Assembly: GCA_002478765.1 (NCBI GenBank)
Contig: DLQO01000036.1
Coordinates: 1-13,041 of the forward strand
DNA: 13,041 nucleotides
Direction of reading: 5' to 3'
From: Flavobacteriales bacterium UBA7430
Lineage (GTDB): Bacteria > Bacteroidota > Bacteroidia > Flavobacteriales > UBA7430
The notes below the pieces were generated by a model that saw nothing but the letters and a program-made list of their open reading frames with translations, had not been told where the DNA came from and ran no database searches. Positions 1,263 to 8,924 of the stretch are shown here, in pieces. Each line of letters starts with the position of its first letter. The stretch's first letter is position 1. Position numbers and translations under genes: made by a program.

Positions 1263-1270
1263 TACATTTG
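1263..1270 (+). promoter_or_regulatory. Bacteroidota -7 promoter element of the his operon
   Basis: TACATTTG matches the Bacteroidota -7 consensus TAnnTTTG exactly. No clear TTG-type -33 element is visible at the usual distance; the region around 1240-1246 is only AT-rich. The expected start of transcription, a few bases after the element, is about 1274-1277, immediately before the leader ORF. The rest of the gap after the previous terminator (1141-1262) is AT-rich and shows no gene. Confidence 0.75.
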
Positions 1271-1277
1271 TATGCTA

Positions 1278-1334
1278 ATGAAAATTATTACGACACATAA
1301 CCACCATCATTTTACGAACTCAAACGAGCTCTAA
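1278..1334 (+). CDS. hisL: Histidine operon leader peptide
   Basis: A short ORF encodes 18 residues, MKIITTHNHHHFTNSNEL, ending in TAA. Four of the 18 residues are histidine: codons at 1296-1298 and three consecutive ones at 1302-1310. It lies between a -7 promoter element and a terminator that sits directly before hisG. In the established attenuation model, scarcity of charged tRNA-His stalls the ribosome at these codons. An in-frame ATG at 1272 (MLMK...) is an alternative start, but it falls at or before the expected transcription start. The peptide shows no other feature, so its role is presumably in cis through its translation. Confidence 0.85.
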   Translation: MKIITTHNHHHFTNSNEL

Positions 1335-1371
1335 GGTTGATGTATATATACAACACTCAGAACCCGTTTGA
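1320..1371 (+). promoter_or_regulatory. Antiterminator stem of the his attenuator
   Basis: TCAAACG at 1320-1326, inside the last leader codons, is perfectly complementary to CGTTTGA at 1365-1371, the loop-proximal half of the terminator's 5' arm. It duplicates part of the terminator's 3' arm (TCAAACG at 1376-1382), so the two structures exclude each other. The enclosed segment contains a self-complementary TGTATATATACA (1341-1352) flanked by GTTG and CAAC, which could fold within the antiterminator. A ribosome stalled at the His codons would leave 1320-1326 free. A ribosome at the stop codon (1332-1334) would cover it and allow termination. The pairing is seen; the switching is inferred. Confidence 0.8.
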
Positions 1372-1391
1372 TTTTTCAAACGGGTTTTTTT
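1361..1391 (+). terminator. Attenuator terminator before hisG
   Basis: AACCCGTTTGA (1361-1371) pairs over 11 bp with TCAAACGGGTT (1376-1386) around a TTTT loop. A run of seven T (1385-1391) follows. It lies after the His-rich leader ORF and ends 13 nt before the hisG start, so it is placed to stop transcription before the structural genes when histidine is plentiful. Confidence 0.93.
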
Positions 1392-1404
1392 ATTTATAAC
1401 AATT

Positions 1405-2256
1405 ATGATACGCATAGCAATTCAAAAATCAGGACGCCTAAACATTGATTCCATGGCTTTACTCAAAAGTTGTGGTATTTCCATCGACAATGGGAAAGAT
1501 CAACTCAAGGCTGCCGCTCGAAACTTTCCAATGGAGGTATTCTTCCTTCGCAACGGCGATATTCCGCAGTATTTACGCGATGGGGTAGTAGACCTAGCCA
1601 TTGTGGGGAGTAATCTTTTGGTAGAAAAAGGAAAGGAACTGGAAATTATTGAGCCCTTAGGCTTTTCAAAATGTAGAGTATCTATTGCAATCCCTAAAGG
1701 AATTCCGTTTGCTGGTGTTTCCGATTTGGCGAATAAAAAGATCGCGACTTCCTATCCAAACACGGTAAATCAATTTTTAGATAAAAAAGGCATTCAAGCC
1801 GATATACACGTCATTAGTGGCTCTGTAGAAATTGCTCCCAACATCGGCTTAGCTGATGCCATTTGTGATATTGTTTCCAGTGGTAGTACCTTATTTAAGA
1901 ATAATCTGAACGAGGTTATTGAGATTTTAAAATCTGAGGCTGTATTGGTACAAGCTCCCAATGTAACCTCTGAACAGCAACTTTTAATAGATAAACTGCG
2001 TTTTAGAGTTCAAGCGGTCCTTCGTGCCAAGCAATCGCGCTACATCTTACTCAATGTACCAAACGAGCAAATAGATGCCGTATCGGCTATCTTACCGGTT
2101 CTAAAAAGTCCTACCGTTTTGCCATTGGCTCAAGAAGGCTGGAGTTCCATTCATTCGGTAATCAATTCGGGGGATTTTTGGGAAGTAATCGATCAGCTCA
2201 AAGCTGCGGGTGCTGAAGATATTCTGGTTTGTCCAATTGAAAAAATGGTACGCTAA
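1405..2256 (+). CDS. hisG: ATP phosphoribosyltransferase, long form (HisG)
   Basis: HisG catalyses the first committed step, ATP plus PRPP to N1-(5-phosphoribosyl)-ATP. The protein has 283 residues, the length of the long, self-sufficient HisG type; the short type is about 210 residues and needs HisZ. The N-terminal periplasmic-binding-protein-like fold includes RIAIQKSGRL at the start and VDLAIVGSNLLVEKG at about 62-76. The PRPP-binding loop DAICDIVSSGST is at about 151-162. The last ~75 residues (LPLAQEGWSSIHSVI to the end) form the ACT-like regulatory domain expected to bind histidine for feedback inhibition. The ATG is 13 nt after the attenuator's T run and has no Shine-Dalgarno. Its stop overlaps the hisD start as TAATG. 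Confidence 0.97.
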   Translation: MIRIAIQKSGRLNIDSMALLKSCGISIDNGKDQLKAAARNFPMEVFFLRNGDIPQYLRDGVVDLAIVGSNLLVEKGKELEIIEPLGFSKCRVSIAIPKGIPFAGVSDLANKKIATSYPNTVNQFLDKKGIQADIHVISGSVEIAPNIGLADAICDIVSSGSTLFKNNLNEVIEILKSEAVLVQAPNVTSEQQLLIDKLRFRVQAVLRAKQSRYILLNVPNEQIDAVSAILPVLKSPTVLPLAQEGWSSIHSVINSGDFWEVIDQLKAAGAEDILVCPIEKMVR

Positions 2257-3542
2257 TGCAAGAGTTTATTAATCCTGCTCCGGCTGATTGGGAGGCTATA
2301 TTGAAACGCCCTACGGCGAGCTTCAAAGATTTAGAATCTTTGGTAGAAGAAGTTTTTCAAGAAGTAAAAAGCAAAGGAGACCAAGCCATAGTTGATTATA
2401 CGCTGAAATTCGATAAAGTAAAGCTCAACGCTTTTACAGTAAGTGAAGCCGAATATACACGTGCTGAATCGGTAGTTGCTGCTCCTTTAAAAGAAGCCAT
2501 TCAACTGGCGCGAGAAAACATAAAAACTTTTCACAGCGCACAGCAAACCCAAACCGTTTCGGTTGAAACCCAACCGGGTGTACTGTGTTGGCAAGAAAAA
2601 CGTCCGATCGAAAAAGTTGGACTATACATTCCTGGAGGATCGGCGCCTTTATTTTCAACCTTATTGATGCTCGCAGTTCCCGCTCAAATTGCAGGCTGCA
2701 AAGAAATTGTATTGTGTACCCCACCTGATGCGAATGGATCCATTCCCGATGTGATTTTGTACACCGCACAACTGTGTGGCGTAACACAGATTTTTAAGGT
2801 AGGCGGGATTCAGGCAATTGCAGCTTTAACCTATGGAACTGCAACCATCCCCAAGGTATATAAGATTTTTGGCCCAGGAAATCAATACGTCACCGTAGCA
2901 AAACAGATCGCTACCCAACATCAGGTTGCCATTGATATGCCCGCTGGTCCAAGTGAATTATTGGTTGTTGCAGATCAATCTGCTAATCCGGCCTATGTCG
3001 CTTCGGATTTATTGTCACAAGCAGAACACGGCGCAGACAGTCAGGTGATTTTAGTCACTACCTTTCCTGCTTTATTGGATCAGGTACGAGGCGAAATAGC
3101 GGCTCAACTGCAAGCACTGCCTCGCAAGGAGATCGCGCAACAGGCAATGGTTAATTCCAGAATGATAGCATTTGAAATCGATGAACAGGCAATAGCCTTC
3201 ATCAATCAATACGGTCCTGAACACTATATTGTTTGTATGGAAAACGAAACGCTGTACGTGGATCAAATCACCAATGCAGGCTCTGTTTTTATAGGGAATT
3301 TCACCCCAGAAAGTGCGGGGGATTATGCCTCAGGGACAAATCACACCTTGCCAACCAATGGCTATGCAAAACAATACAGTGGAGTGAATTTGGATAGTTT
3401 TTTAAAGCAAATGACCTTCCAGAAAATATCGGCTAAAGGAATACAGGCTATTGGCCCAGCTATCGAGCTTATGGCCGAGGCTGAAGGGCTTCAGGCACAT
3501 AAAAATGCTGTAACCCTTCGCTTAAACGATTTAAAGAAATGA
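2256..3542 (+). CDS. hisD: Histidinol dehydrogenase (HisD)
   Basis: HisD performs the last two steps, oxidising L-histidinol to L-histidinal and then to L-histidine with two NAD+. The 428-residue length is normal for this Zn enzyme. By alignment with known HisD motifs, the Zn ligands are Q255 and H258 (DLLSQAEHGADSQ), D356 (ESAGDYASG) and H415 (GLQAHKNAV). The catalytic pair is E322-H323 in YGPEHYIV. NAD-binding segments include YIPGGSAP and FGPGNQYVTVAKQ. The start codon overlaps the hisG stop by one base and the stop overlaps hisC as ATGA, so translation is probably coupled in both directions. Confidence 0.97.
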   Translation: MQEFINPAPADWEAILKRPTASFKDLESLVEEVFQEVKSKGDQAIVDYTLKFDKVKLNAFTVSEAEYTRAESVVAAPLKEAIQLARENIKTFHSAQQTQTVSVETQPGVLCWQEKRPIEKVGLYIPGGSAPLFSTLLMLAVPAQIAGCKEIVLCTPPDANGSIPDVILYTAQLCGVTQIFKVGGIQAIAALTYGTATIPKVYKIFGPGNQYVTVAKQIATQHQVAIDMPAGPSELLVVADQSANPAYVASDLLSQAEHGADSQVILVTTFPALLDQVRGEIAAQLQALPRKEIAQQAMVNSRMIAFEIDEQAIAFINQYGPEHYIVCMENETLYVDQITNAGSVFIGNFTPESAGDYASGTNHTLPTNGYAKQYSGVNLDSFLKQMTFQKISAKGIQAIGPAIELMAEAEGLQAHKNAVTLRLNDLKK

Positions 3543-4591
3543 AAAGATCAATCAACATTGATGCGCTCACACGCCCAACAATACAAGCTATGCAAGCGTA
3601 TCGTTCTGCACGCTCAGAATTTGTAGCGTCAGATCGGGAAATGATTCTTCTGGATGCAAACGAGAATCCTTTTGAAACGGGATTGAATCGGTATCCCGAT
3701 CCCATGCAAACAGAATTGAAAGAACGCTTGGCCAAAGTCAAGGCTGTTGAGCCGTCTCATATATTCTTGGGTAATGGAAGTGATGAACTCATCAACCTCC
3801 TAATGGTTGCCTTTTGTGAGCCCAAAGAAGATGAAATCCTGTTGGTTCCGCCGACTTTTGGCATGTATCAGGTTTCAGCTAATTTGAATGGATTAGCTTG
3901 TGTAGAGGTTCCTTTAATTTCTGGTTTTCAGTTGAATGTCTCAGAAATACTAGCTCAAGCAACAGATCGTACCAAGATGATATTCATTCCAACACCAAAT
4001 AATCCAACCGGGAATCGCTTTCCTATGAAGAATATCAAGGCAATTGTAGCAGGTTTTCCTGGCTTGGTAGTGGTTGACGAGGCCTATGCCGAGTTTTCCC
4101 CTGGCGAAACAGCAATTGATTGGTTAGCGGATTATCACAATGTGGTGGTATTGCAAACCTTTTCCAAGGCACAAGGCCTAGCCGGTGCCCGTGTAGGAAT
4201 GGCTTTTGCTCACCCGGACATCATAGGAGTTTTAAATAAAATCAAAGCACCCTACAACCTTAATGTCTTGTCTCAACAGGCGGTTTTTGATCGTTTGGAC
4301 AATGCTGATACTGTTGCAAGTGAAGTTCAATTGATGCTTAAAGAGAAGGGGGTTTTAGTATCTAAAATACAGCAAATTAGACTTGTAAAAGAAATTTTTC
4401 CATCCGATGCTAATTTTATTTTAATTCGTGTCGATGATAGTCAATTACGATACAAGCAACTAATCGATAAAGGTATTGTTGTTCGGAATCCTTCGAATCA
4501 ATACGCCTGCGAAAATACACTGCGAATCTCCATTGGAACAGCAGCTCAAAATAAAGCCTTGATTGCTGCCTTTAAAACGATGGATCAATAA
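3539..4591 (+). CDS. hisC: Histidinol-phosphate aminotransferase (HisC)
   Basis: This PLP enzyme of fold type I converts imidazole-acetol phosphate plus glutamate to histidinol phosphate plus 2-oxoglutarate. The 350-residue protein has the expected landmarks in order: LDANENPF near 38-45, [10 protein letters not shown] near 77-85, PNNPTG with N155, VVDEAYAEF with D180 and Y183, and the Schiff-base lysine K210 in [14 protein letters not shown]. The substrate-carboxylate arginine is R329 in LRISIGT. The start overlaps hisD by four bases (ATGA). hisB begins four bases after the stop. The operon context separates it from related aminotransferases that act on aromatic amino acids. Confidence 0.97.
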
Positions 4592-4595
4592 TACC

Positions 4596-5732
4596 ATGCA
4601 AATGAAAAAAGTTCTCTTTATCGACCGTGACGGAACGCTAGCCCAAGAGCCAGCGGACTATCAGTTGGATGCACTTTCCAAATTGGAATTTTATCCGGAA
4701 GTATTTACATACTTAAGAAAAATAGTGACTGAACTGGATTACGAATTGGTTATGGTAACCAATCAAGATGGTTTAGGTACCGATTCATTTCCAGAAGACA
4801 CTTTTTGGCCTACCCATAACTTTCTATTAAAAGCCTTTGAAAACGAAGGGATTAGCTTTAATGACATCTGTATCGATCGCAGTTTTCCTGCGGACAATGC
4901 ACCAACACGCAAACCAAGAACAGGCTTACTTACATCCTATCTCAATGCTGAGCAATATGACATGCAGCAGTCATTTGTGATTGGCGATCGGATGACGGAT
5001 ATCGAATTGGCCTATAATTTAAAAGCTGAAGGAATTTTCATCGCAAATGATACCGAACTTGGAGCAGCGGAAGTTGGGGCTTCAGATTTTAGGGATACTC
5101 TTGCACTCACCACCACCAGCTGGAAAGAAATCTATGAATTTTTAAAGTTGAAGCAACGCATTGTAGTTCAAAAGCGAACAACAAACGAAACCGATATTAC
5201 ACTTGAATTGAACCTAGATGGAACTGGTAAAAGTCAGATTGATTCGGGAATTGCCTTTTTCGATCACATGCTGGATCAAATTGCCCGCCACGGGAATATG
5301 GATTTGAAATTGAATATTAAAGGCGATTTAGAAGTAGACGAACACCATACTATTGAAGATACCGCTATTGTTCTTGGAGAAGCCTTTGCACAAGGCTTGG
5401 GAGACAAACTTGGGATAGAACGCTACGGCTTTTGCTTGCCCATGGACGACTGCTTAGCGCAAGCATCAATTGACTTTGGTGGAAGAAATTGGCTGGTTTG
5501 GGAAGCCGATTTTAAACGTGAAATGATTGGGAAAATGCCTACTGAAATGTTTTATCATTTCTTTAAATCCTTTACCGATGGTGCCAAAGCCAATTTGAAT
5601 ATCAAAGCTGAAGGAAGCAACGAGCATCATAAAATCGAGTCCATTTTTAAGGTCTTTGCCAAAGCAATTAAGGTTGCAGTAAAGCGCGATCCCGATAAAA
5701 TGATTTTACCCAGTACAAAAGGCAGCCTTTAA
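4596..5732 (+). CDS. hisB: Bifunctional histidinol-phosphatase / imidazoleglycerol-phosphate dehydratase (HisB)
   Basis: A 378-residue fusion carries out two steps. Residues 1 to about 170 form a HAD-type histidinol-phosphatase with the DxD nucleophile motif D10/D12 (FIDRDGT), [10 protein letters not shown]106 in TRKP, and GDRMTD with D131/D135. Residues from about 187 form the imidazoleglycerol-phosphate dehydratase, with H224 and H232 ([13 protein letters not shown]), DEHHTIED at 248-255, EHHKIE at 343-348, and the LPSTKGSL end. The ATG at 4596 is chosen because it lies just after the hisC stop and gives [17 protein letters not shown] 4602 is equally possible, and an upstream TTG at 4563 lies inside hisC. 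The Cys/His Zn-binding loop known in E. coli HisB is not conserved: only C92 remains. Confidence 0.96.
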
Positions 5733-5745
5733 AACAACAACACCA

Positions 5746-6333
5746 ATGAACGTAGTCCTTGTAAATTATGGTGCAGGAAATATTAAAAGCCTGCAATTTG
5801 CCTTAGAACGTTTGGGAGTAACTGGAATATTGAGTTCTGCTGCTACTGAAATTCAAGAAGCCGACAAAGTAATCTTTCCTGGAGTAGGCGAGGCGAGTAG
5901 CGCTCTGTCGAAACTTAAAGAATCTGGTTTGGATGTGGTACTTCCCAAGCTCAAACAACCTGTTTTAGGCATTTGCCTGGGCATGCAACTCATGTGTACC
6001 CATACCGAAGAAGGAAATACTCCCGGTTTAGGAATCTTTGATGTTGCTGTTAAGCGTTTTGACAATGATTTAAAAGTTCCTCAAATGGGTTGGAATACCG
6101 TGTTAGAAACGAAGTCTCCTTTGTTTGATAATCTTGACGCTGAATCTTATATGTACTCCGTCCACAGTTACTATGCTGGGCTATGCAAGGATACCATAGC
6201 ACAAACGAATTATGGAATAGCCTACAGTTGTGCTTTGCAAAAGGATAATTTTTATGGGGTACAATTCCACCCAGAAAAAAGTAGCAAGGCTGGAAGTCAG
6301 CTGCTTTCTAATTTTTTAGCTTTAACCACATGA
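5746..6333 (+). CDS. hisH: Imidazole glycerol phosphate synthase, glutamine amidotransferase subunit (HisH)
   Basis: HisH hydrolyses glutamine and passes ammonia to HisF, with which it forms imidazole glycerol phosphate synthase. The 195 residues cover a class I (triad) glutaminase domain. The nucleophile is C77 in [12 protein letters not shown] and the rest of the triad is H175 and E177 in [22 protein letters not shown] at the N-terminus and [11 protein letters not shown] are typical of HisH. The gene starts 13 nt after hisB and its stop overlaps the hisA start as ATGA. Its partner hisF is two genes further downstream. Confidence 0.96.
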
Positions 6334-7055
6334 GAATAATACCCGCCATAGATTTAATTGACGGTAAATGTGTCCGCCTTTCTAAAGGGGATTACGCCAC
6401 TCAGAAAATATACAACGAACATCCGCTTGAGGTTGCGAAAGCATTTGAAGCCCACGGAATTCAGCATTTGCATTTAGTTGATCTTGACGGAGCGAAGTCC
6501 AAGCACATAGTAAACCACAAGGTGCTGGAGGATATCGTCTCTAAAACCAGCCTTAAAATTGATTTTGGCGGGGGATTGAAGTCGGATGAAGACTTAAAAA
6601 TAGCCTTTGAAAGCGGCGCACATCAAGTTACGGGTGGAAGTATTGCCGTAAAAGAACCTGGGGTATTTGAACAATGGATAGAAACTTATGGGAGTGAAAA
6701 AATTATTTTAGGTGCCGATGTACAAGGAGAACGCATTGCTACCAATGGATGGCTAGAAACCTCGGAACATCGTTTAGTTGATTTTGTAAAAGATTATCAC
6801 GCCAAGGGAATACAGTATGTTATTTGTACTGACATCAGTAAAGATGGGATGCTAGAAGGCCCATCGTTTGAAGTTTATGCTGATTTATTAGCGGCACAAC
6901 CCGGAATTAAACTCATTGCTTCGGGAGGTATTTCAAGCTTTGACGAGCTTCCAAGATTAGCAGCCATGGGTTGTGAAGGAACCATTATTGGGAAAGCGAT
7001 CTATGAAAATAGAATTACTTTGGCAGCATTAGAAAACTTTATCTTGCAATCATGA
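6330..7055 (+). CDS. hisA: ProFAR isomerase (HisA)
   Basis: HisA opens the aminoaldose of ProFAR to the ketose PRFAR by an Amadori rearrangement. The 241 residues form a (beta/alpha)8 barrel of normal length. The two catalytic aspartates are D8 ([14 protein letters not shown]) and D130 (LGADVQG). Phosphate-binding loops appear as [11 protein letters not shown] and as [12 protein letters not shown], with [10 protein letters not shown] near the end. It overlaps hisH by four bases and its own stop overlaps the next gene by four bases (ATGA), so it is translationally linked on both sides. Confidence 0.97.
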
Positions 7056-7561
7056 AGGATCTCATTTTAAAAGAATTTAAAGAGAATACCGTTTTTCGAC
7101 TCGAAGAAAGCTTGTGTATGATTACAATCGCTTTTTCAAAAATAACAGAGGATATGCTCTGGAAACGCCCAACTGAGAAAGGCATGGCATTGGGAAATCA
7201 AATTTTGCACAGCTGTGGCAATATGACTCAGTACATTTGTACTTCCTTGGGAGAACAAAAGGATGAACGGAAACGGGAGCTAGAATTTTCTACACATGCG
7301 GGAGCAACTAAAGAAGAATTACTCAAACAATTAGCAACTACGGTTCGAACAGCTCAAGACACCATCCATAATGCCACTGCACTTCAATACGAAACCGTTC
7401 GTGAAGTTCAAGGTTTCCAGCTTTCTGGTGTTGGAGTTGTTTTGCATGCCGTAGAGCATTTTTCTTATCATACGGGACAAATTGCCTTTTGGGTAAAACA
7501 GATGACTCAAGAGGAACTTGGTTTTTATGAGGGAATCGATTTAACTCAAAACAATAAATAG
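7052..7561 (+). CDS. DinB-like (YfiT/DinB fold) protein inside the his operon
   Basis: The 169-residue protein matches the DinB-like four-helix-bundle superfamily. A candidate metal-binding triad is visible: H53 in [12 protein letters not shown], and H136 and H140 in [20 protein letters not shown], the family's usual C-terminal signature. Known members bind a divalent metal, and some act as thiol-dependent S-transferases; many have no assigned function. No histidine pathway step is missing that this protein would need to fill. It is nonetheless tightly embedded: its start overlaps hisA by four bases and hisF starts one base after its TAG stop. Its role is unknown. A contribution to the pathway, to detoxification of a reactive intermediate, or mere hitchhiking are all possible. 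Confidence 0.85.
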
Positions 7562-7562
7562 T

Positions 7563-8318
7563 ATGCTGACCAAACGCATCATTCCCTGTTTAGACATCAA
7601 AGACGGACGCACCGTAAAAGGGGTGAATTTTGTAAACCTTCGCGATGCTGGAGATCCCGTAGAATTGGCACGTCAGTATGCAAAACAAAATGCTGACGAA
7701 TTGGTTTTTTTGGATATCTCTGCAACCGAGCAAAAACGAAAAACACTAGCCGATTTGGTTCGCAAAGTAGCACAAGCCATAGACATTCCCTTTACCGTAG
7801 GTGGCGGGATAAGTTCGGTTGAAGATGTAGCCATTCTCTTACAAAACGGAGCAGATAAGGTATCCATCAATTCTGCTGCTGTCAAGCGACCCGAACTCAT
7901 CAATGATTTAGCAGCCCAGTTTGGAAGCCAATGCATTGTTGTTGCCATGGATGCCAAGCAAATCGATAAGCAATGGAAGGTGCATTTGGTCGGTGGTAAA
8001 ATTCCAACCGAAATTGACCTTTTCGATTGGGCAAAAGAAGTTGCCGATCGTGGTGCCGGAGAAATTTTGTTTACCTCAATGGATCATGATGGAACCAAAG
8101 CTGGTTTTGCAAACCAAGCCTTAGCCCGAATTTCTGAGGAGGTGAACATTCCAATAATAGCCTCAGGGGGTGCGGGTAACACCCAGCACTTCGTCGATGC
8201 GTTTACCCAAGGTAAAGCAGATGCCGCTTTAGCAGCAAGTATTTTCCATTTTGGAGAAGTTGATCTACCCGATTTAAAACAAAAACTTAAGCAACAGCAG
8301 ATCGCTGTTCGTATTTAA
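7563..8318 (+). CDS. hisF: Imidazole glycerol phosphate synthase, cyclase subunit (HisF)
   Basis: HisF uses ammonia from HisH to convert PRFAR into imidazole glycerol phosphate and AICAR; the AICAR is recycled into purine synthesis. The 251-residue (beta/alpha)8 barrel starts [20 protein letters not shown] with catalytic D11 and has D130 in IVVAMDAK. Further signatures are [33 protein letters not shown] and IIASGGAG. It follows the DinB-like gene by one base and precedes hisIE by nine bases. Confidence 0.97.
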
Positions 8319-8327
8319 TACATACCC

Positions 8328-8924
8328 ATGAATTTAGATTTCAATAAAAACACTGATGGTCTTGTACCGGCAATTATTCAAGACGCAACTACTCAAAAAG
8401 TATTGATGTTGGGCTATATGAATGCTGAGGCATTGTCAGTAACCCAGACAACAGAAAAAGTTACTTTTTTTAGCAGAACAAAAAACCGCCTCTGGACCAA
8501 AGGGGAGGAGAGTGGTAATTTCTTGGAACTGGTAAGCATAAAAGAAGATTGTGACGATGACACACTCTTGATTCAGGTGAATCCACAAGGACCAACCTGT
8601 CACAAAGGAACAGATACCTGTTGGGAAGAATCAAATACGTCTAGTTTTGGGTTTTTAAGTACGCTCGGAAAAACGATTAAAGAGCGGAAAGAAAATAATG
8701 AAGACGATAGTTATGTCGCTTCTTTATTTCGTTTGGGAATCAATAAAATAGCACAGAAAGTAGGCGAGGAGGCTGTTGAAACTATTATTGAGGCAAAGGA
8801 CGCTGATGAGGAGTTATTTTTAAGTGAAAGTGCAGATTTGTTATTCCATTATCTTATTCTGCTTGAAGCCAAAGGCTTTTCTTTACAAGACATTGAGCAG
8901 CGTTTAGCTTCAAGAAGTAAATAA
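8328..8924 (+). CDS. hisIE: Bifunctional phosphoribosyl-AMP cyclohydrolase / phosphoribosyl-ATP pyrophosphatase (HisIE)
   Basis: This 198-residue fusion carries out steps two and three of the pathway. Residues 1 to about 105 are the HisI cyclohydrolase, with GYMNAEAL, FFSRTKNRLWTKGEESGN, acidic Mg-binding residues in CDDDTLL (C75-D78), and the Zn cysteines C91 and C98 with H92 in GPTCHKGTDTCW. From about residue 108 the HisE pyrophosphatase is an all-helical MazG-like domain; its signature is KIAQKVGEEAVETIIEAK followed by ESADLLFHYLILL. It is the last his gene. The next promoter lies 25 bases after its stop and no obvious terminator is seen between them. Confidence 0.97.
   Translation: MNLDFNKNTDGLVPAIIQDATTQKVLMLGYMNAEALSVTQTTEKVTFFSRTKNRLWTKGEESGNFLELVSIKEDCDDDTLLIQVNPQGPTCHKGTDTCWEESNTSSFGFLSTLGKTIKERKENNEDDSYVASLFRLGINKIAQKVGEEAVETIIEAKDADEELFLSESADLLFHYLILLEAKGFSLQDIEQRLASRSK

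Follow-up and report, generated by a model that had tools for sequence, protein, structure and literature searches.

Ribosome-mediated attenuation requires a ribosome that follows close behind RNA polymerase, and among the RNA elements of the Bacteroidota we take Bacteroid-trp (RF01692) to be a trp leader attenuator. A comparative study of attenuation by Lopatovskaya and co-workers from 2010 may already cover the Bacteroidetes. Bacteroid-trp appears as a cis-regulatory RNA in Table 1 of Weinberg 2010 and comes from the same phylum as the DNA analysed here. The excerpts available from a transcriptome study of F. psychrophilum (PMC9723704; 2021) offer clues to leader-peptide attenuation upstream of amino-acid operons, and they describe a structured 5' element upstream of hisG that is conserved in other Flavobacteriaceae genera and has no Rfam hit. 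That element, whose hisG anatomy is not given in the excerpts, is probably the same as ours, and because the study already contains both the attenuation clues and the hisG element, we regard the attenuator below as a variant within a known class of regulator. A mention of a Bacteroidota hisG upstream element was found in PMC9723704 only, and not in the accessible text of PMC7366714, PMC8305728, PMC9413887, PMC4833913, PMC2965389, PMC2864571 or PMC6847099.

Here we analyse 13,041 nucleotides from Flavobacteriales bacterium UBA7430 (contig DLQO01000036.1; the whole stretch is called the window). Judged from its sequence and modelled folds, the segment at 1263-1404 is very probably a ribosome-mediated transcription attenuator that senses histidyl-tRNA. 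All of its parts lie on the forward strand. A -7 box of the Bacteroidota primary sigma type (TACATTTG, 1263-1270), recognised by direct reading and from published box positions, precedes a short leader ORF (MKIITTHNHHHFTNSNEL, 1278-1334; ATG at 1278, stop codon TAA at 1332-1334) whose predicted translation includes four His codons (1296, 1302, 1305 and 1308). Strand 2, the antiterminator TCAAACG (1320-1326), falls within the leader codons Ser-Asn-Glu. The core of strand 3, CGTTTGA (1365-1371), can pair either with strand 2 or with the core of strand 4 (1376-1382), the 3' arm of the terminator. The 3:4 hairpin (AACCCGTTTGA-TTTT-TCAAACGGGTT, 1361-1386) and a run of seven T (1385-1391) form an intrinsic terminator (1361-1391) between the leader and hisG, whose ATG (1405) lies 13 nt past position 1391. 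A preliminary description had listed the four His codons, the complementary strands at 1320-1326 and 1365-1371, the seven T and the 13-nt distance to hisG, and had put the antiterminator strand in the last leader codons; when the sequence was re-read directly, its coordinates at 1263-1404 proved correct and each of these parts was found in place. It had also called the arrangement unusually compact. This holds for the short spacer between terminator and hisG and not for the distance from ATG to terminator: 106 nt, where the median over 126 loci is 108 nt. Two features, a hairpin that we call A:B (1305-1342) and the near-leaderless start of the ORF, are additions to that description.

The first gene of the operon, hisG (1405-2256), is followed at 2256-8924 by hisD, a hisC-type aminotransferase gene, hisB (HAD and IGPD domains), a hisH-type GATase gene, hisA, a DinB/DUF1572 gene, hisF and hisIE. 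Domains in the operon were assigned by Pfam, and the names hisC, hisH, hisA and hisF by context. The DinB/DUF1572 family gene (7052-7561) thus sits between hisA and hisF, inside the his operon. The terminator was reported by a hairpin scan, which gave two terminator-like sites in 1000-2000 against 0.9 (sd 0.8) expected, and the gene upstream of the leader has a terminator-like hairpin of its own at 1102-1135. Two Rfam matches at 1073-1137 (RefA9, E = 0.15; MIR9486, E = 0.94) cover this upstream hairpin; both are far below gathering and were rejected.

The proposed mechanism runs as follows. RNA polymerase would begin transcription only a few bases upstream of the leader AUG. When histidine suffices, the ribosome would get to the stop codon and cover strand 2, so that strand 3 would pair with strand 4 and transcription would end in the T run. 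With histidine short, the ribosome would stall at the first His codons; strand 2, left free, would pair with strand 3 ahead of the synthesis of strand 4, and the polymerase would read into hisG. If the leader were untranslated, A:B could form and keep strand 2 in its apex, a state that should favour termination. On this scheme the enzymes of the his operon would probably be made only when histidine is short. The analysis shows the parts themselves, how they are conserved, and folds that are predicted to exclude each other; from them we infer stalling, masking, read-through and the precise start of transcription. The hairpin could alternatively act on the initiation of hisG translation rather than on transcription: the terminator lies near the hisG start in the window's clade (20 nt by the survey measure), and an added translational layer is possible. 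However, the 3:4 hairpin leads into a T run, which ends ahead of the hisG start codon by the 13 nt noted above, and we consider an attenuator of translation in place of transcription very improbable.

How general is the transcriptional attenuator? We compared 171 hisG upstream regions, consisting of the window, 77 of 79 GTDB loci (L058 and L064, being too short, were left out), 33 loci from genome searches and 60 fetched regions. The sample leans toward HisG sequences near that of the window, and it covers lineages below about 45% HisG identity only in part. A search of the phylum gave a HisG match in 213 of 247 genomes, from which 29 newly given loci and 60 others, mostly of higher identity, were used; the viral contigs searched yielded no HisG relatives. 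A short ORF with at least three His codons in eight consecutive codons is present in 152 of the 171 regions, including 48 of the 60 fetched ones, compared with 133 of 3420 shuffled regions (3.9%). The other 19 of the 171 lack such an ORF. When one leader with undetermined bases (L025) is left out, a simple finder reports a T-tailed hairpin after 126 of 151 leaders and no terminator after 25; by eye, five of the 15 inspected among these 25 (L113, L078, L062, L074, L075) show a T-tailed hairpin that the filter missed, and several from one family (f4) have weak hairpins or none. The preliminary description had proposed this comparison of hisG upstream regions for a His-rich ORF and matching strands, and the outcome is positive in most of the regions examined. 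In eight loci with His-rich leaders (L148-L151, L153, L160, L161 and L173) the hairpins are weak or an intrinsic terminator is not recognisable; such loci may use another form of termination or control. Another locus (L061) has several tandem copies of terminator hairpin and T run within about 160 nt before hisG.

Could the ORF instead encode a functional small peptide, for example a metal-binding one, next to an unrelated terminator or insulator? Its length is conserved (median 18 amino acids among the 126 loci) and it is rich in His. Against this, the antiterminator strand falls on the conserved C-terminal codons, which vary from clade to clade in step with the terminator; there is already a terminator-like hairpin for the upstream gene; and the ORF precedes hisG in most of the examined regions. 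These observations make a peptide function, with the hairpin as a bystander, highly unlikely. We assign a still smaller chance to control of the terminator by a protein, a T-box or a ligand-sensing riboswitch with the His codons incidental. No supporting point was found for it, the His codons are far above the chance level given above, and at E ≤ 1 no Rfam family, T-box included, matches 1263-1404.

Within the attenuator reading, the pairing of strand 2 with strand 3 is the central prediction. In the window this pairing is by itself only moderately unusual (one of 50 shuffles is as good), and support for the attenuator therefore rests on its conservation. Set against shuffled sequence, strand 2 reaches a mean z of -2.7 for pairing with the arm and loop of its own terminator, and it beats all 50 shuffles in 59 of 126 loci. 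Over the 126 loci it pairs more strongly with its own terminator arm than with foreign ones (-8.7 versus -5.9 kcal/mol); the own arm wins 79% of comparisons on average, and a level of at least 90% is reached in just 36 loci. Terminator cores are clade-specific (CCCGTTTGA, CCCGTCTGA, GGCTTACC, CCCGGC, GGCATTCCGGT and others), and strand 2 changes along with them. In an alignment of the window's clade (40 sequences, 38 distinct; L029, L034, L037, L041 and L045 left out) the 2:3 pairs are formed in 100% of cells; two-sided changes are absent from these 40 sequences, so this clade gives no covariation for 2:3, its antiterminator pairs being nearly invariant. Among 29 further relatives, 2:3 is paired in 99.6% of cells, with two-sided changes at two pairs (seven cells versus 2.6 shuffled). 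For the terminator, two-sided cells number three in the window's clade and six in the further relatives. For 2:3, the compensatory changes that the preliminary description had named as a check are missing from the window's closest clade and present in the 29 relatives.

The position of the ribosome relative to strand 2 can be predicted from the geometry of the leader. In 117 of 126 loci the whole of strand 2 falls between -18 and +14 relative to the stop codon, so that a ribosome at the stop is expected to cover it. In 125 of 126 loci at least one His codon is located 16 nt or more upstream of strand 2, where a stalled ribosome is predicted to leave it free. The masking that the preliminary description had envisaged, with strand 2 covered at the stop and free at an early His stall, is in keeping with both counts. 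The four His codons of the window are located 24, 18, 15 and 12 nt from strand 2, and a ribosome at either of the last two would leave the strand free only marginally. If the ribosome is modelled as stalled at the second His codon, 2:3 is part of the fold predicted ahead of strand 4 synthesis in 126 of 126 loci, versus 42% of 630 controls in which the region after the His codons was shuffled. The corresponding count with the ribosome at the stop, 0 of 126, follows from the construction of the mask and hence is not evidence; in that state the terminator arm still finds other partners in 43 of 126 loci. When no ribosome is present, 2:3 belongs to the equilibrium fold that precedes strand 4 in 77 of 126 loci, the window among them, and termination by default would therefore need kinetics or an order of folding. 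Fold prediction, geometry and conservation together point to an antiterminator that is exclusive with the terminator, would be exposed on an early stall and would be covered at the stop. The His-rich ORFs, the 2:3 pairing predicted throughout for the stalled state and the co-change of strand 2 with the terminator between clades all support the ribosome-mediated his attenuator that had been suggested from the window alone.

Classical attenuators have a protector hairpin, and A:B is similar, but it encloses strand 2 where the classical one shares it. In the window, fold prediction pairs the segment from the last two His codons onward (1305-1314) with the last codon, the stop codon and the bases after it (1330-1342), giving a hairpin of -9.5 kcal/mol with strand 2 in its apex, predicted to form before strand 3 is synthesized; the duplex by itself has p = 0.11 against shuffles. 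Across loci, the leader start and His codons can pair with the post-stop segment and enclose strand 2, and the relatives support A:B better than the window does. At p ≤ 0.05 this duplex is stronger than its shuffles in 62 of 126 loci, and at least five A:B pairs are predicted before strand 3 exists in 116 of 126, a modest excess over the 73% obtained when the post-stop segment is shuffled in a way that roughly keeps dinucleotides.

The start of the leader ORF deserves separate attention. In F. psychrophilum a TAnnTTTG box lies at -12 to -5, and the part of the F. johnsoniae data consulted puts the box 4 or 5 nt from the transcription start site. When these spacings are applied to TACATTTG, transcription is predicted to begin at about 1275-1278, which would make the window's leader ORF near-leaderless, with only about 0-3 nt of 5' UTR predicted. 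Another ATG in frame, at 1272, was dropped as a leader start, as it is upstream of the predicted start of transcription. A sigma-70-like site from a generic scan (1200-1229) was likewise dropped; it is not of the Bacteroidota promoter type, and the -7 box was preferred. By raw counts, a full TAnnTTTG match occurs within 70 nt upstream of 114 of 151 leaders, and its end lies 4-9 nt before the start codon in 54 of these 114. In the window's clade, here coded as 45 loci including the more distant L037, L041 and L045, the distance between a box matching at five or six of six positions and the start codon is 4-8 nt in 39 of 45 (again raw counts), from which a 5' UTR of 0-4 nt is predicted for the clade. 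Three more loci (L029, L031 and L032) would join these 39, with a distance of 5 nt, if the first ATG is taken; other clades vary, and in many the 5' UTR is longer. As background, leaderless mRNAs make up 5.5% in F. psychrophilum; in the sections consulted of the respective studies, 5' UTRs shorter than 10 nt amount to 3.7% in B. thetaiotaomicron, and 13% of those in F. johnsoniae are 10 nt or less and 87% longer.

Some relatives carry a fifth strand (L045, L047, L049, L050, L052, L081-L083, L086, L090, L094-L097, L099-L108 and others). In 35 of 126 loci the stretch from terminator to hisG contains a segment whose pairing with the 5' arm and loop of the terminator is better than in all 50 shuffles; at L061 this segment is a repeated terminator. 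In an alignment of 29 loci, picked because the strand seemed present, 95.3% of cells are paired; two-sided changes affect five pairs (26 cells versus 9.2 shuffled), and the score is 0.278 against 0.135 when shuffled and at most 0.058 when slid. When the region from strand 3 to hisG is folded in 28 loci chosen on the same basis, a 3:5 pairing rather than the terminator is the predicted minimum in 25; contrary to this, the consensus fold of the aligned region still favours the terminator. A DNA-binding palindrome is a less likely explanation, as the spacing varies and the bases covary with the terminator loop, and a mere copy of the terminator 3' arm would not account for the loop pairing. The window, with its short spacer between terminator and hisG, has no fifth strand. 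Our guess is that the strand refolds the terminator in read-through mRNA. It is tempting to see the Bacteroidota his leaders as attenuators of a widespread class, near-leaderless in certain lineages and five-stranded in many, in which, after escape from the terminator, the fifth strand before hisG pulls the terminator into a longer read-through hairpin with a role of its own (e.g., in mRNA stability, hisG translation or pairing with terminated leader RNA), and to suppose that the window's compact lineage lost the strand; we hold this view tentatively and with somewhat less than even confidence. We know of no such extra conserved strand in textbook attenuators.

A covariance model built from the 40 window-clade sequences was searched against 30 genomes, of which 14 supplied training sequences and 16 did not, with 125 candidates scored per genome. 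The best match is beside hisG in 30 of 30 genomes, and 31 matches have E ≤ 3.1e-6, the next being at 1.1e-4. Eleven weak matches were inspected, nine of which have no comparable leader and look like ordinary terminators. The other two (L178 and L186, in the genomes of L045 and L050, the latter labelled Fluviicola sp.) are Tyr-rich leader ORFs with a terminator before a gene of the phenylalanine-hydroxylase type. The genes after these leaders encode closely similar proteins, one of which was tested and carries a biopterin-dependent aromatic amino acid hydroxylase domain. Pairing of the 2:3 type amounts to about -12 kcal/mol in both, a raw energy without shuffle control. On their sequences, these are likely tyrosine attenuators with the same layout as the his leader.

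Two of the 31 top matches come from the window's own assembly. A second hisG and hisD, on contig C57, are 66% and 58% identical to those of the window and match genus mates. The window itself is collinear over 4.25 kb, at 86% DNA identity, with a MAG of Flavobacteriaceae and another of Candidatus Arcticimaribacter. The window's contig (G000:C76) is therefore probably misbinned.

Existing Rfam models do not recognise the element. With RF00514 (His_leader), none of 10 genomes has a match above the 49-bit cut-off, which one of 14 control genomes exceeds; the hisG leaders of G174, G000:C57 and G001 score 33.4, 28.4 and 28.4 bits, below it. Matches to RF01692 pass the 49-bit cut-off in four of 10 genomes, none of them at hisG, and the window's locus is unmatched. 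The analysis adds an RNA element that Rfam models do not match, together with a conserved extra strand in relatives. Less expected are a leader ORF 0-4 nt from the predicted transcription start in the window's clade and the covariation of the fifth strand in some relatives. Bacteroidota mRNAs naturally lack Shine-Dalgarno sequences, as stated in the portion of the literature consulted. A his attenuator in most of the examined regions of this phylum, and in the window with a transcript predicted to start nearly at the AUG, would be natural evidence for coupling of transcription and translation, and it would serve as a ready reporter for such coupling in this phylum.

The his attenuators predicted in Firmicutes share with the window a leader with three to five consecutive His codons, a terminator and an antiterminator (PMC9413887, from its description of them); they belong to another phylum, and the likeness is one of layout. 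The enterobacterial his leader (RF00514), as far as the consulted account of it goes, is alike in its His-rich leader peptide, its mutually exclusive antiterminator and terminator, and its control of the his operon. It differs from the window, where strand 2 sits within the final sense codons, the leader begins almost at the predicted 5' end of the transcript, and the A:B hairpin encloses strand 2.
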